A stretch of 40,724 nucleotides of DNA from NCBI GenBank assembly GCA_029549715.1, contig JAKPIQ010000136.1:1-40724 (forward strand), read 5' to 3'. Positions 22,485 to 26,842 of this stretch are shown here, piece by piece. Position 1 is the first letter of the stretch, and each line of letters opens with the position of its first letter. Source of the DNA: Candidatus Atribacteria bacterium. Lineage in GTDB: Bacteria > Atribacterota > Atribacteria > Atribacterales > Caldatribacteriaceae. Position numbers and translations under genes: made by a program. The notes beneath the pieces were generated by a model. That model worked only from the letters and a program-made list of their open reading frames with translations. It was not told the DNA's origin and ran no database searches.

Positions 22485-22916
22485 TTAAATCCCCGTGTCC
22501 ACTATCTGTTCGGTGATCTCGCTAAACTTTTTTTCCATCTCTTCATGATATGGTTTCCAAATTTCTTCCGCCCAAATCTCCAGGCGTTCCCCTACTCCCA
22601 CCCAGACCACTTGTCGGTTTATTTCCGCATAGTTTTTTAAGTAATCAGGAAGAACAATCCTTCCCTGCCCATCAAGATCGAGGTAAATGGCATTAGCCAG
22701 AAAAAAGCGGGAAAACTCTCGAGTTTCTTTGCGAGTGAGAGAAAGAGTGGAAATCTTTTGATAAAGTTTGTTCCAAAGTTCTTCAGGATAAAGAAATATG
22801 CACTTTTCCATCCCTTGAGTAAGATAAACTTTTCCGGTGATTTCTTCTCTAAAGGAGCTAGGAATTACCACTCGATTCTTTTCATCTACAGTGTGGTAAT
22901 AATGGCCCAGAAACAT
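22485..22916 (-). CDS. mraZ: Transcriptional regulator MraZ
   Basis: MFLGHYYHTVDEKNRVVIPSSFREEI, second AbrB-like repeat DGQGRIVLPDYLKNYAEI. I prefer the ATG start at 22914-22916 over the GTG at 22943 in the track. Confidence 0.95.
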   Translation of the reverse strand: MFLGHYYHTVDEKNRVVIPSSFREEITGKVYLTQGMEKCIFLYPEELWNKLYQKISTLSLTRKETREFSRFFLANAIYLDLDGQGRIVLPDYLKNYAEINRQVVWVGVGERLEIWAEEIWKPYHEEMEKKFSEITEQIVDTGI

Positions 22917-22919
22917 CTT

Positions 22920-22953
22920 CCACTTCCTCCCACCTTCTACCACTATACACCAC
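22920..22953 (-). promoter_or_regulatory. Probable MraZ operator: four GTGG repeats at 10-bp spacing
   Basis: Plus-strand CCAC (minus GTGG) starts at exactly 22920, 22930, 22940 and 22950, directly upstream of the mraZ ATG. Confidence 0.8.
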
Positions 22954-23032: not shown

Positions 23033-23749
23033 CTAGGTAAGGATTTGTTTAAATTCCCCCCAGCTGGGGAAAGAAGAAAACATAAAAGAAGTAGTAGCTG
23101 AGCCGATTTGAGAAAGAGAATGGGCATCGGAAAAGCGAAGGAATCGAAAACCCTCTAAGCCTAACTCATTTACTGCTATTTCCGGGGAACAGTGGCTCGA
23201 TAACTCCACCACCTTTATTTCCAGATCTGGAGGGATAAAACCAAGTTGAGAAATTATACTGTAACTCCGGCGATCCACATGGGCAGGAATAACTATCCCC
23301 CCTCTATTCCTTACTCTATCCACCACTTGCTCCACGGATAAATCCAGAGGATGAACCAGAAGATTCCTTTTTTTTTCTTTTATTTCTCCCTCTTCACTTA
23401 TTATCCACTCTTCCCCCCATACTTCTTCTTGCAGAGGAATGAAAGGAAGGAACTTTTCTATTTCCTGATTGAAGTCATAAAGTTGGGATAAAGAAGGAAA
23501 GAAGGAAAGAAGGTGCACTTCCTCCCGAGTCTCTACTTCTAATCCTGGTATCACCCAGATACCAAACTTTTCCCCCAAAGTTACGGTTACTTCCACATTA
23601 TTACAGGCATTGTGATCAGTTACCGCAATCAAGCCGATATTTTTCTCCCAGGCTTCCAAAACAATGCACTGAGGCAACATATCTCGATCGGCACAGGGGG
23701 ACAAAACACTGTGAATGTGAAGATCGGCCAAAAAAGCTCCTTTAGCCAT
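23033..23749 (-). CDS. PHP-domain metal-dependent phosphoesterase-like protein
   Basis: DLHIHSVLSPC, VTDHNACNN, PGLEVET, PAHVDR, FSDAHSL. Confidence 0.88.
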   Translation of the reverse strand: MAKGAFLADLHIHSVLSPCADRDMLPQCIVLEAWEKNIGLIAVTDHNACNNVEVTVTLGEKFGIWVIPGLEVETREEVHLLSFFPSLSQLYDFNQEIEKFLPFIPLQEEVWGEEWIISEEGEIKEKKRNLLVHPLDLSVEQVVDRVRNRGGIVIPAHVDRRSYSIISQLGFIPPDLEIKVVELSSHCSPEIAVNELGLEGFRFLRFSDAHSLSQIGSATTSFMFSSFPSWGEFKQILT

Positions 23750-24095
23750 GCCTTTTGGTGCCCGGTATCCCCAGAGAAGAAAGAACGCTAACTGCCTGGT
23801 AGCTGGTCAAAGAAGTGCGTAAAATGGTTATCCCTTCTTTTTGAGCCCTCTTCGTGGTTTCTTCATTAACTTCTTGATAATTACAAATCACTATACAGGG
23901 CATACCCACCAACACTGCCACCGCCACCACATTAGGATGAGACTGAATGGTAACCCAAATACTTCCTTCTTTAGCATTGGCGATACAATCACTGAGAAGG
24001 TCTCCACAGTATCCTCCTGCTATATCCTGTTCTGCTATTTTTTCTCCCACTACTATTTCCGCTTTCAGCGGTTCAACAATTTGAGTCACTTTCAA
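23742..24095 (-). CDS. DRTGG-domain-like protein
   Basis: GGYCGDLLSDCIANAKEGSIWVTIQSHPNVVAVAVLVGMPCIVICN...; similar layout to the ORF at 25874-26224 and to DRTGG-type domains. Confidence 0.65.
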   Translation of the reverse strand: MKVTQIVEPLKAEIVVGEKIAEQDIAGGYCGDLLSDCIANAKEGSIWVTIQSHPNVVAVAVLVGMPCIVICNYQEVNEETTKRAQKEGITILRTSLTSYQAVSVLSSLGIPGTKRHG

Positions 24096-24101
24096 GATTC
24101 T

Positions 24102-25424
24102 TTATTCCTCCTTTTTGGCCATGGTTTGCGGAACCTTACTGGCCAAAGCATGAACCTCTCGCACTAAAGCACGTAACTGCTCCTGTAGCATAAAAGGACA
24201 ATCTACTTCCTCTGCCTTTTCCCTTACTATATCCTCAGCCAAGGCTCTGCAGGTAGGGGAACCGCAAGCTCCACAATCCAGACCGGGAAGTCTTTCTAAA
24301 AGTTTTTCAATCATCTGATATTTTTCCAAAGCTCGTTTAAAATCTTTGTCCAGTTTTAAGACTTCCTTAGCCTGATAAATCTCCTTTCTCTCAAATACTC
24401 CTTTTCTACGCCACTCTTCCATTTCTTCCTCTTTTATGGGTCGAAATTCAGTATATCTCTTAAGTAGATGATTGATGCCTACTTTAGCAATGAAAGGATT
24501 CTGTACTGCCAGCACTCCTCCAATGCATCCTCCTACACAGGCTTGAGCCTCACAGTAAACCACATTTCTCAATTCTCCCATCTCGATTTTTTCCAGTACT
24601 GAAATAACTTGATGGATACCATCTACAGCCATATATTCCCCTTCTTCTAGCGAGTCCTGCTCTCCTCCCGAGCGAGCCCAGCCAATACCTCGAAAACTAG
24701 CTAAAGACAAAGAAGGAGGTTCTTCCAGCTCTCCTACTATATTAACCAAGCGAGAATAAATATTGGCTACAGAGATAGCTCCATCTATGCTTCCCAAACC
24801 ATCCCCACTTTGCCTGGATTCGGTTACCTTAGCCGGACAAGGAGTAATAAAAAAGACCCCGATCTCCTCGGGGCGATATCCTTTTTCCATAGCTTGCATT
24901 CTTGCTAATTTGGCTGCTACTCCCAGGGGAGAATCCAAAGGCAATAAATTTTCTATTAAAGAAGGAAACCTAACCTCTATCAGTCTTACCACTGCAGGAC
25001 AAGCGGAGGAAATTACTGGAGTGGCTATCCATCTCTTTTTTAAATAACGATTGATCTCTTCTGCTAAAATTTCTGCCCCTCGAGCTACTTCAAAAACTTC
25101 CTGAAAACCTAAATGTAAAAGACCTTGAAGCATTTTGCCCAACGAAATACCCACTTTAAATTGAGCATAAAAAGCAGGGGCAGGAAGAGCTATAGCACAG
25201 GAAAAATTTTTTATCACTTCTAAAGAATCAGCCTGAGCGTATTTAGCATGATTAGGGCAAATCCGAATGCATTCTCCACAATCGATGCATCTTTCCTCGT
25301 CAATTCGGGCCTTTCCTTGTTTCACCCGAATGGCCTCAGTGGGGCAGTGGCGAATACAATGAGTACAACCTTTGCATTTCTCTTCATCCAGACGAACAGA
25401 ATGAAATATCTCTTCGTTTATCAT
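24102..25424 (-). CDS. [FeFe]-hydrogenase large-subunit-like protein, putative sensory type
   Basis: N-terminal 2x[4Fe-4S] (CKGCTHCIRHCP, CIDCGECIRICP); H-cluster motifs VISSACPAV, TPCPAKVTE, CEAQACVGGCIGG; C-terminal Fe-S motif LDCGACGSPTCRALAEDIV. Confidence 0.88.
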   Translation of the reverse strand: MINEEIFHSVRLDEEKCKGCTHCIRHCPTEAIRVKQGKARIDEERCIDCGECIRICPNHAKYAQADSLEVIKNFSCAIALPAPAFYAQFKVGISLGKMLQGLLHLGFQEVFEVARGAEILAEEINRYLKKRWIATPVISSACPAVVRLIEVRFPSLIENLLPLDSPLGVAAKLARMQAMEKGYRPEEIGVFFITPCPAKVTESRQSGDGLGSIDGAISVANIYSRLVNIVGELEEPPSLSLASFRGIGWARSGGEQDSLEEGEYMAVDGIHQVISVLEKIEMGELRNVVYCEAQACVGGCIGGVLAVQNPFIAKVGINHLLKRYTEFRPIKEEEMEEWRRKGVFERKEIYQAKEVLKLDKDFKRALEKYQMIEKLLERLPGLDCGACGSPTCRALAEDIVREKAEEVDCPFMLQEQLRALVREVHALASKVPQTMAKKEE

Positions 25425-25429
25425 AGTAT

Positions 25430-25873
25430 CTATTTCTCCGGATTAAGAAAAAAATCCATGACCACTTTAGTTCCCTCTCCTATCCGGGTGTCAATTTCCA
25501 GGTGATCAGAGCATTTTTTCATATTAGAAAGACCGTATCCCGCTCCAAAACCCATTTCTCTTATATGAGGAGGAGCGGTAGAATAACCTTCTTGAAAGGC
25601 CAACTCCAGATCCGGTATACCTGGGCCCTGGTCATCTACTTCAATATGCACCCGGTCTTCATAAATCTCAGTAGCAAAAATCCCTCGATAAGCATGGATT
25701 ACTACATTCATTTCTGCTTCATAGGCAGCAATCACTACTCGACGATTAAAAGAAGGAGGAAAGCCTACTTGTTGAAGAACTTTTTTCAACTCACCAGATA
25801 CATCACCAGCACTCTGAAAATCTCCCCCCACAATTTCTCGCTCTATTTCTACTAAGACTTTATCTTCCTCCAC
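25430..25873 (-). CDS. RsbW-like HATPase (anti-sigma-factor-type ATP-binding protein)
   Basis: AYEAEMNVVIHAYRG (N box), EVDDQGPGIPDLE (G1), MGFGAGYGLSNMKKCSD (G2). Confidence 0.85.
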   Translation of the reverse strand: MEEDKVLVEIEREIVGGDFQSAGDVSGELKKVLQQVGFPPSFNRRVVIAAYEAEMNVVIHAYRGIFATEIYEDRVHIEVDDQGPGIPDLELAFQEGYSTAPPHIREMGFGAGYGLSNMKKCSDHLEIDTRIGEGTKVVMDFFLNPEK

Positions 25874-26224
25874 CTATACTTCACTACAACCCTTCAGTCC
25901 CTGTAGATAAAGCTTCCCGCAAGATTCATACATAGGCAAATGAGTAGCTAAAAGGGGAATTTTCTTGATGGTAGCTAATTCAACAGTGTAATTATCAGGT
26001 TTTTTTCCTCGTACAAAAATAATTCCTATTATGTCACTCATCTCTGCAGTACGAATCACTTGAGGATTAGTTAGACCAGTAAGGAGCACAGAGTTTTCCT
26101 TAGTAAAAGCTAAAACATCACTTAAAAGGTCACTGCCACAAGCACAAGATGGTTGTCGATCCAAGAATTCTTCCCCTGCCAGCACCTGGGCTTGTAATAT
26201 TTCTTTTATTTCTCGCAAAGTCAT
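25874..26224 (-). CDS. DRTGG-domain-like protein
   Basis: CACGSDLLSDVLAFTKENSVLLTGLTNPQVIRTAEMSDIIGIIFVRGK...; paralogue-like to 23742-24095. Confidence 0.65.
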   Translation of the reverse strand: MTLREIKEILQAQVLAGEEFLDRQPSCACGSDLLSDVLAFTKENSVLLTGLTNPQVIRTAEMSDIIGIIFVRGKKPDNYTVELATIKKIPLLATHLPMYESCGKLYLQGLKGCSEV

Positions 26225-26236
26225 GTAATCTTTCCC

Positions 26237-26842
26237 TCATTTCCCCACAAAAGCCTCTATTCCCTGGCCTTTTAATTTGTTAGCTACCTTTTGAGCTTCA
26301 TCACTACTTTGAAAACCATATATCCTCACTCGATGTAATCCTGAAACAGGTTCAGAAACGGCTTGATATCCAAACCCCTTCAAAAGGTCCACCATCTTTT
26401 GAGCGTTGGCTGGTTGAGAAAAAGCCCCGCACTGGACAAAAAATCCTCCGGAAGGAGCTTCAGCTACCTTTGGAGGAGGAGACGATGGAGCTGCAGGTTT
26501 TGCAGGAGGTTCCACTTTTTTCTCTTCTGGAGGAGCACTTGCTGCTATCTGAGTAGAAGGAGCTACCTCTTCAGAGGGAATCTCCTCTTGCGAGGGTAAA
26601 CCTTCAACAGACTCTTCTTGATGCTCAAATTCTTCTTCCACCCAAGCATAAGTAGAAGGAGAAACTTCTTTTACTTCCACTTTCTCTTCAAAAATATTGC
26701 CAGTGAGTAGGTATTCGGTATAATAGTCCAGGTCTCCTCGAGCCATGAAAAAAGCAAAAACCACCACCAGTAACCCCCCTAAGAGGATTATAATTGTTTC
26801 TACCGGATCTTGTCTTTTTAAAAAAGCAAAAGGATTGCTCAT
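26237..26842 (-). CDS. Membrane-anchored SPOR-domain protein
   Basis: One TM segment (TIIILLGGLLVVVFAFFMA), Pro/Ala/Glu linker, C-terminal FFVQCGAFSQPANAQKMVDLLKGFGY...HRVRIYGFQSSDEAQKVANKL. Confidence 0.85.
   Translation of the reverse strand: MSNPFAFLKRQDPVETIIILLGGLLVVVFAFFMARGDLDYYTEYLLTGNIFEEKVEVKEVSPSTYAWVEEEFEHQEESVEGLPSQEEIPSEEVAPSTQIAASAPPEEKKVEPPAKPAAPSSPPPKVAEAPSGGFFVQCGAFSQPANAQKMVDLLKGFGYQAVSEPVSGLHRVRIYGFQSSDEAQKVANKLKGQGIEAFVGK

Follow-up and report, generated by a model that had tools for sequence, protein, structure and literature searches.

The locus analysed here raises the question of what a [FeFe]-hydrogenase-like protein might do when its gene is packed among those of an HATPase, two DRTGG-domain proteins and a PHP-family protein. 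The five genes lie at positions 23033-26224 of a 40,724-nucleotide stretch (hereafter the window) of contig JAKPIQ010000136.1 from the assembly of an uncultured Atribacterota bacterium (GCA_029549715.1; 1.45 Mb, 217 contigs, 92% complete), with Atribacteria and Caldatribacterium as the closest named relatives. We propose, with a probability of roughly 60%, that this cassette is an H2/redox-responsive phospho-signalling module which has the hydrogenase-like protein HydS as its input and was ancestrally tied to the electron-bifurcating hydrogenase HydABC. The proposal draws on the observed gene identities, the group D residues of HydS, the conservation of gene set and order, gene fusions, co-distribution, linkage to HydABC, and copies of the cassette that carry CBS domains and no HydS.

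The cassette consists of five tightly packed open reading frames (ORFs) on the minus strand, listed here in the order of transcription:

25874..26224, minus strand: DRTGG1, a stand-alone DRTGG-domain protein of 116 amino acids with the motif DLLSD (Ser35); from Pfam and conservation
25430..25873, minus strand: HATPase, a SpoIIAB/RsbW-like protein of 147 amino acids, likely a kinase or ATP-driven switch; Pfam HATPase_c_2, 47.5 bits
24102..25424, minus strand: HydS, a putative sensory [FeFe]-hydrogenase of group D (M2e), 440 amino acids; from Pfam, NCBIfam, alignment and conservation
23742..24095, minus strand: DRTGG2, a second DRTGG-domain protein, 117 amino acids; from Pfam and predicted structure
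23033..23749, minus strand: a PHP-family metallo-phosphoesterase, 238 amino acids; from Pfam (sub-threshold), conservation and predicted fold

The spacing between neighbouring genes ranges from an overlap of 8 bases to a gap of 6 bases. An earlier note on this DNA had described five adjacent minus-strand genes between a SPOR-domain gene and the dcw cluster, and the ORFs occupy exactly that span. Its gene names also hold, Pfam and NCBIfam annotation being consistent with DRTGG, HATPase, [FeFe]-hydrogenase-like and PHP proteins, with two refinements: the HATPase is closer to SpoIIAB than to RsbW, and the hydrogenase falls in group D/M2e.

Conservation of the five-gene set in two phyla

Group D HydS was found in 25 of 50 Atribacterota genomes, and all 25 have the arrangement DRTGG1-HATPase-HydS-DRTGG2-PHP, in the same order and after a SPOR-domain gene; departures from this order occur where a contig stops and in one duplicate whose HATPase is broken. 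In the other 25 genomes, which belong to other families (G025-G049, families f5-f7), neither group D HydS with its cassette nor a match to HydF was found; a group A3 [FeFe]-hydrogenase has been reported in the class Phoenicimicrobiia (JS1) (PMC11227167). One Caldatribacterium genome has a partial second copy of the HATPase gene, located upstream of HydS (L024, positions 1-565, and L067).

The second sample comprised 399 genomes from the phylum of Tepidanaerobacter, here termed Bacillota, 160 of which have a group D HydS. Stretches of up to 16 kb were taken around 60 hand-picked matches spanning the score range and, with two earlier ones, gave 62 loci. HydS is accompanied in these by DRTGG1 (55 loci), HATPase (59), DRTGG2 (60) and PHP (55), with the complete five in 51. 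Also present are HydC (55 loci), HydB (52), HydA (47) and HATPase2, a second HATPase that differs in type (54). The two DRTGG proteins were told apart by their position relative to HydS, because the locally built profiles for DRTGG1 and DRTGG2 came to overlap once iterated. DRTGG1 was found in 157 of the 160 genomes with HydS versus 14 of the 239 without it, a comparison that ignores shared ancestry and uses a profile also able to catch DRTGG2. Pairwise protein distances in the Bacillota loci correlate for all pairs (r 0.60-0.81, shared ancestry likewise ignored). Chance adjacency of the five genes is ruled out by their identical order in two phyla. The recurrence of the five genes together in other genomes, on which the earlier suggestion of a functional unit depended, is borne out in 25 of 25 HydS-bearing Atribacterota and 51 of 62 Bacillota loci, and gene content and order indicate that the set is a conserved functional module.

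HydS has the features of group D [FeFe]-hydrogenases

Group D enzymes are defined by a pair of N-terminal [4Fe-4S] motifs together with an H-domain and a cluster at the C-terminus, without a PAS domain (PMC8163306). HydS of the window follows this domain plan, with Pfam scores of 111 bits for Fe_hyd_lg_C and 49.6 bits for the C-terminal FeS domain, and Pfam detected no PAS domain in it. The elements concerned are the following:

25257..25376, minus strand: cysteines C17-C56 of the N-terminal 2x[4Fe-4S] region; from the alignment, with coordinates calculated from the ORF
24996..25010, minus strand: H-cluster motif L1, SSACP; aligned to group A HydA of the same genome (TSCCP)
24828..24842, minus strand: H-cluster motif L2, PCPAK, with Thr194 directly before it; from the alignment
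24516..24551, minus strand: H-cluster motif L3, E292...C296-x3-C300...G303; from the alignment
24198..24275, minus strand: C-terminal [4Fe-4S] domain, Cx2Cx4Cx16C (C384, C387, C392, C409); Pfam FeS PF04060, 3.1e-13

The H-cluster cysteines C142, C196, C296 and C300 are all kept in the alignment, and E292, C296 and C300 are invariant across 72 aligned rows, as are the four cysteines of the C-terminal cluster. Ala141 takes the position of the proton-transfer cysteine of group A, Cys142 being the expected ligand, and Thr194 places a hydroxyl residue, as in group D, at the M353 position, where group A has Met. In TamHydS, an alternative pathway is formed by E252, E289, S249 and D265, which are exclusive to group D except for the second Glu (PMC10407848). 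These residues correspond to E255, E292, S252 and D268 of the window protein with a constant offset of 3 (by published numbering, TamHydS being outside the alignment), and E255, E292 and D268 are conserved at 96-100% in the homologue alignment. Of the neighbours described for group D genes, a kinase-like ATPase and the bifurcating HydABC, the first is represented by the HATPase gene that adjoins HydS, while HydABC of this genome sits on other contigs. By the sequence features tested, the window hydrogenase is a member of the group D (M2e) TamHydS family; its diagnostic residues and domain plan agree with its earlier placement in a putative sensory group. A lone second group D HydS occurs in Tepidanaerobacter (L025, 7986-9308), with a Fur-like regulator and MinD/NifX-like neighbours and without the other cassette genes.

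Group D enzymes, whose genes lie close to those for a kinase and for a bifurcating hydrogenase, have been proposed to be sensory (PMC8163306, PMC3561251), and the sensory role of such hydrogenases has been termed putative (PMC8924675). TamHydS is slow, and its structure shifts with H2 (PMC10407848, PMC13104023). A 2026 study reported that the C-terminal cluster of group D is not reduced by H2 and described knowledge of the native partners as limited (PMC13104023).

Gene fusions and copies without HydS

The two genes DRTGG1 and HATPase are fused as a single open frame in nine loci (e.g. L082, L114, L121 and L168). HydS and DRTGG2 form a single frame in L123, as do PHP and HATPase2 in L162, L163 and L171. 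Such fusions suggest, short of proof, that the joined proteins are in contact.

Several genomes without HydS were also opened. In three of their loci (L177-L179, from G202, G169 and G373), DRTGG1, HATPase, DRTGG2, PHP and HATPase2 are kept without HydS, and the HATPase carries two added N-terminal CBS domains. A CBS-HATPase of identical type lies beside DRTGG1, again without HydS, in L182, L183, L184, L186 and L189; three of these five also keep DRTGG2, PHP and HATPase2, and L182 also has HydCBA. In total, there are eight HydS-less CBS-HATPase loci with DRTGG1, six of them with DRTGG2-PHP-HATPase2. No hydABC genes were found near the copies in L177, L178, L179, L186 and L189. Because the HydS-less copies bear a CBS-HATPase, HydS and the CBS pair appear to be alternative inputs to the HATPase, as though one sensor had taken the place of the other. 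These variants, together with physical linkage, make the HATPase the likely partner of HydS, as had been supposed from the window.

Other loci are split or degraded. In G420, HATPase-HydS is found on L170 and, on a different contig, rex-DRTGG1-DRTGG2-PHP-HATPase2 at the valS-folC locus L192; the HydS of L170 (7040-8347), retained only with HATPase, is diverged and has changed H-cluster motifs (SAGCP, PCTAE). In L176 (8571-10028), HydS and PHP are present as frame-broken fragments between rex-DRTGG1 and DRTGG2/HydC, through either decay or sequencing errors.

The HATPase, DRTGG and PHP proteins

The nearest solved relative of the HATPase is the anti-sigma F factor SpoIIAB. Residues E52 and N56 lie opposite the N-box Glu and Asn of SpoIIAB and are invariant in 69 homologues. 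The protein scores well under the equivalog cut-offs of both named families (53 versus 135 bits for SpoIIAB, and 28 versus 145 bits for RsbW). The normal substrate of SpoIIAB/RsbW kinases is a STAS protein.

Both DRTGG proteins pass the gathering cut-off of PF07085 (31.6 and 29.8 bits versus 25.2), and Ser35 of the DLLSD motif is invariant in the homologues of each (65/65 and 70/70). The predicted model of DRTGG2 (predicted local distance difference test, pLDDT, 87.7) has its best fold match in the DRTGG protein AF1212 (template modelling, TM, score of 0.79) and places Ser35 at the start of a helix. Solved DRTGG relatives close by include the regulatory regions of CBS-DRTGG pyrophosphatases.

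With 23.1 bits, the PHP protein falls just short of the PF02811 cut-off of 26.4. The best fold match of its model (pLDDT 83) is Endonuclease Q, the other top matches are PHP enzymes, and the metal-site residues H11, H13, H46, E71, H79, H157, D208 and H210 are conserved at 98% or more. As judged from the model, which identifies the fold and not the substrate, the fifth cassette protein is of PHP fold with conserved metal-ligand residues. Residues 17-20 of this protein (window 23033-23749) form an invariant SPC(A) with Cys19 right after the HxH motif, which may denote an altered metal site.

Genomic setting and a probable ancestral link to HydABC

Two neighbouring genes lie outside the claimed module:

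26237..26842, minus strand: SPOR-domain gene, a conserved upstream neighbour, including in other phyla; from Pfam
22485..22943, minus strand: mraZ, the first gene of the dcw cluster and the downstream neighbour; from Pfam

The SPOR gene is separated from the cassette by 12 bases and, with the valyl-tRNA synthetase gene valS, lies upstream of it; mraZ begins 89 bases downstream. A link to cell division through SPOR and mraZ is disfavoured, since SPOR, with valS and folC, precedes the cassette in Bacillota too: within the stretches of 65 Bacillota loci, valS is found upstream in 15, folC in 17 and SPOR in 19. As mraZ was not found in the Bacillota cassette stretches examined, the place of the cassette near SPOR looks inherited, and the window retains the order valS-SPOR-cassette.

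In Bacillota, the cassette usually adjoins the electron-bifurcating hydrogenase genes hydCBA. The source genome has no HydABC genes inside the cassette; its sets were located on contigs C114 and C102. The genes on C102 begin with HydC-HATPase2-2Fe2S-HydB, an order that in Bacillota comes after the cassette, and continue with HydC, HydB and HydA. On the same contig (L175/L010), HydB is fused to a long GltD/NfnB-like part in a frame of 1033 amino acids, and the bifurcating-hydrogenase operon is partly duplicated. The simplest reading of these gene orders would be that one ancestral locus, valS-folC-SPOR-cassette-HydABC, came apart in Atribacterota, and with such a split the proximity to dcw is probably not functional. 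In the HydS tree, a branch (91/100) separates the Bacillota sequences from the Atribacterota rows; long outgroups make the rooting weak. As gene order indicates, HydABC is probably the ancestral partner of the cassette, one that is not visible from the window.

A proposed signalling module and its alternatives

In the proposed mechanism, HydS would read H2 or redox state at its slow H-cluster, and its state would be relayed, probably via DRTGG2, to the SpoIIAB-like HATPase. The HATPase and DRTGG1, which are fused in some species, would jointly form a kinase or an ATP-driven switch. The HATPase may transfer phosphate to a DRTGG protein, with the invariant Ser35 as a possible phosphosite, and PHP would be the phosphatase that reverses the signal or the remover of a phospho-ligand. 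The ancestral site of the module would have been between valS-folC-SPOR (sometimes rex) and a hydC-HATPase2-Fd-hydB-hydA operon; because of this ancestral adjacency, control of HydABC expression or activity would be the likeliest output. In Atribacterota, the module would have parted from HydABC and come to abut the dcw cluster.

Several points weigh against this proposal. From sequence we infer that the HATPase is a kinase, which way the signal runs, that Ser35 is a possible phosphosite, what PHP acts upon and what the output would be. The window cassette is not next to hydABC, only part of the set is kept in L143, L157, L160 and L170, and the presence/absence test and the distance correlations are uncorrected for shared ancestry. 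The absence of STAS, PP2C and sigma factor genes among the five cassette genes (Pfam), which the earlier note had pointed out, extends for STAS to the whole genome: no recognisable STAS protein was found (Pfam STAS, E <= 1e-3; assembly 92% complete), so the usual HATPase substrate is missing. A search for the hydEFG maturases, which the same note had suggested, was successful in part. HydG is encoded on contig C141, whereas HydE and HydF gave no match over the cut-offs in the incomplete source assembly, which makes an intact H-cluster in the window HydS uncertain.

The strongest alternative, which we nevertheless regard as unlikely, is that the core senses a small nucleotide (e.g. a dinucleoside polyphosphate) that the DRTGG proteins bind and PHP degrades, while HydS or the CBS pair merely biases the HATPase. 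Its rank is due to the kinship with CBS-DRTGG pyrophosphatases, nucleotide-regulated enzymes in which DRTGG and CBS domains co-occur and which are among the nearest solved relatives, and to the PHP relatives, which act on nucleic acids and nucleotides; the CBS domains of the HydS-less copies fit it as well. However, this DRTGG subfamily has no known ligand, its N-terminal half with the invariant DLLSD motif did not align to other DRTGG proteins, and the PHP gene is absent in L128, L133 and L137 while the rest remains.

It is improbable that HydS is no sensor and aids HydABC in assembly, protection or electron transfer, with the HATPase, DRTGG and PHP proteins as maturation or repair factors. 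Tight linkage to hydCBA in Bacillota and the additional Fe-S clusters of HydS would be explained in this way, but Atribacterota keep the cassette as a unit distant from HydABC, most HydS-less CBS copies have no hydABC nearby, and the HATPase and DRTGG folds are of signalling type.

Slightly less probable still is an unassembled H-cluster, which would leave the window HydS as an Fe-S redox sensor or a relic, and the module sensing redox and not H2. The missing HydE and HydF point in this direction, and L170 and L176 indicate that HydS is capable of decay. Against it, every H-cluster cysteine is conserved in HydS and HydG is present. Maturation factors are also required by the two group A HydABC sets of the source genome, and for this reason assembly gaps are likelier than a true absence of HydE and HydF. 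HydF was not found in three of the four genomes of the source genus; in one same-genus genome it is cut short at a contig end, and 16 of the 25 Atribacterota genomes with HydS encode it at full length. Finally, classical partner switching, with the HATPase as an anti-sigma factor and an alternative sigma factor as the output, is suggested by the closeness to SpoIIAB and is very unlikely given a genome without STAS, a cassette without STAS, PP2C or sigma genes, and scores far under the SpoIIAB and RsbW equivalog cut-offs.

A bolder version of the proposed H2/redox module, which we consider less likely than not, would make the cassette a new kind of bacterial signalling system. Its core would consist of DRTGG1, the SpoIIAB-like kinase, DRTGG2, PHP and HATPase2, with DRTGG proteins accepting phosphate in the role of STAS and PHP serving as phosphatase in the role of PP2C; the inputs would be exchangeable (HydS for H2/redox, the CBS pair for adenylates) and the tie to the bifurcating hydrogenase ancestral.

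Earlier publications already contain the proposal that group D is sensory, the kinase nearby and the link to HydABC. In the open literature searched, no description was found of DRTGG or PHP proteins as partners, of the fusions and CBS variants, or of the relocation in Atribacterota, and we claim no priority for them. Any signal relay from group D HydS would have to do without a PAS domain and, according to the 2026 study, with a C-terminal cluster that H2 does not reduce (PMC13104023). Specific partner proteins and an order of contacts are suggested by the conserved genes, by their fusions and by the CBS variants that lack HydS, so the question of signal relay becomes directly testable with purified proteins of thermophiles. 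If the proposal is true, one shared core would join H2 sensing with CBS input across many anaerobic Clostridia-type genomes.

Comparison with known systems

TamHydS of Thermoanaerobacter mathranii resembles the window HydS in architecture, without PAS, in the Ala at the position of the proton-transfer Cys, in the Glu/Glu/Ser/Asp pathway and in having an HATPase neighbour. However, its gene is upstream of HydABC, whereas that of the window is away from it, and the neighbours named for TamHydS are an HATPase and an AraC regulator, with DRTGG and PHP partners unmentioned in the same papers (PMC8163306, PMC10407848, PMC13104023). Group C (M2f) HydS proteins (e.g. TmHydS and the copy on contig C114 of the source genome) resemble group D in the H-domain, the C-terminal Fe-S domain and a location next to HydCBA and signalling genes, but they have a PAS domain, which the group D protein lacks. 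The C114 copy is 32% identical to the window HydS and adjoins a SpoIIE-type PP2C, not HATPase, DRTGG or PHP genes. Its surroundings (L009, 4114-11734) comprise a 2Fe-2S protein, the group C HydS with PAS, the SpoIIE-type PP2C and HydC-HydB-HydA; the source genome therefore carries both group C and group D HydS.

The window HATPase has the fold of the SpoIIAB/RsbW kinases, their N-box Glu/Asn and their G1 and G2 glycines, and differs from them in having no STAS substrate, PP2C or sigma factor and a DRTGG protein in the neighbouring place. The PHP protein shares its fold and metal-site residues with Endonuclease Q, RNase AM and the 3',5'-nucleoside bisphosphate phosphatase, and is set apart by SPCA with the invariant Cys19 and by neighbours unrelated to DNA/RNA repair. 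The cassette DRTGG proteins have the fold of the regulatory region of CBS-DRTGG pyrophosphatases and of the stand-alone AF1212, but unlike these they are single-domain and paired, carry the subfamily motif DLLSD and are encoded beside an HATPase.

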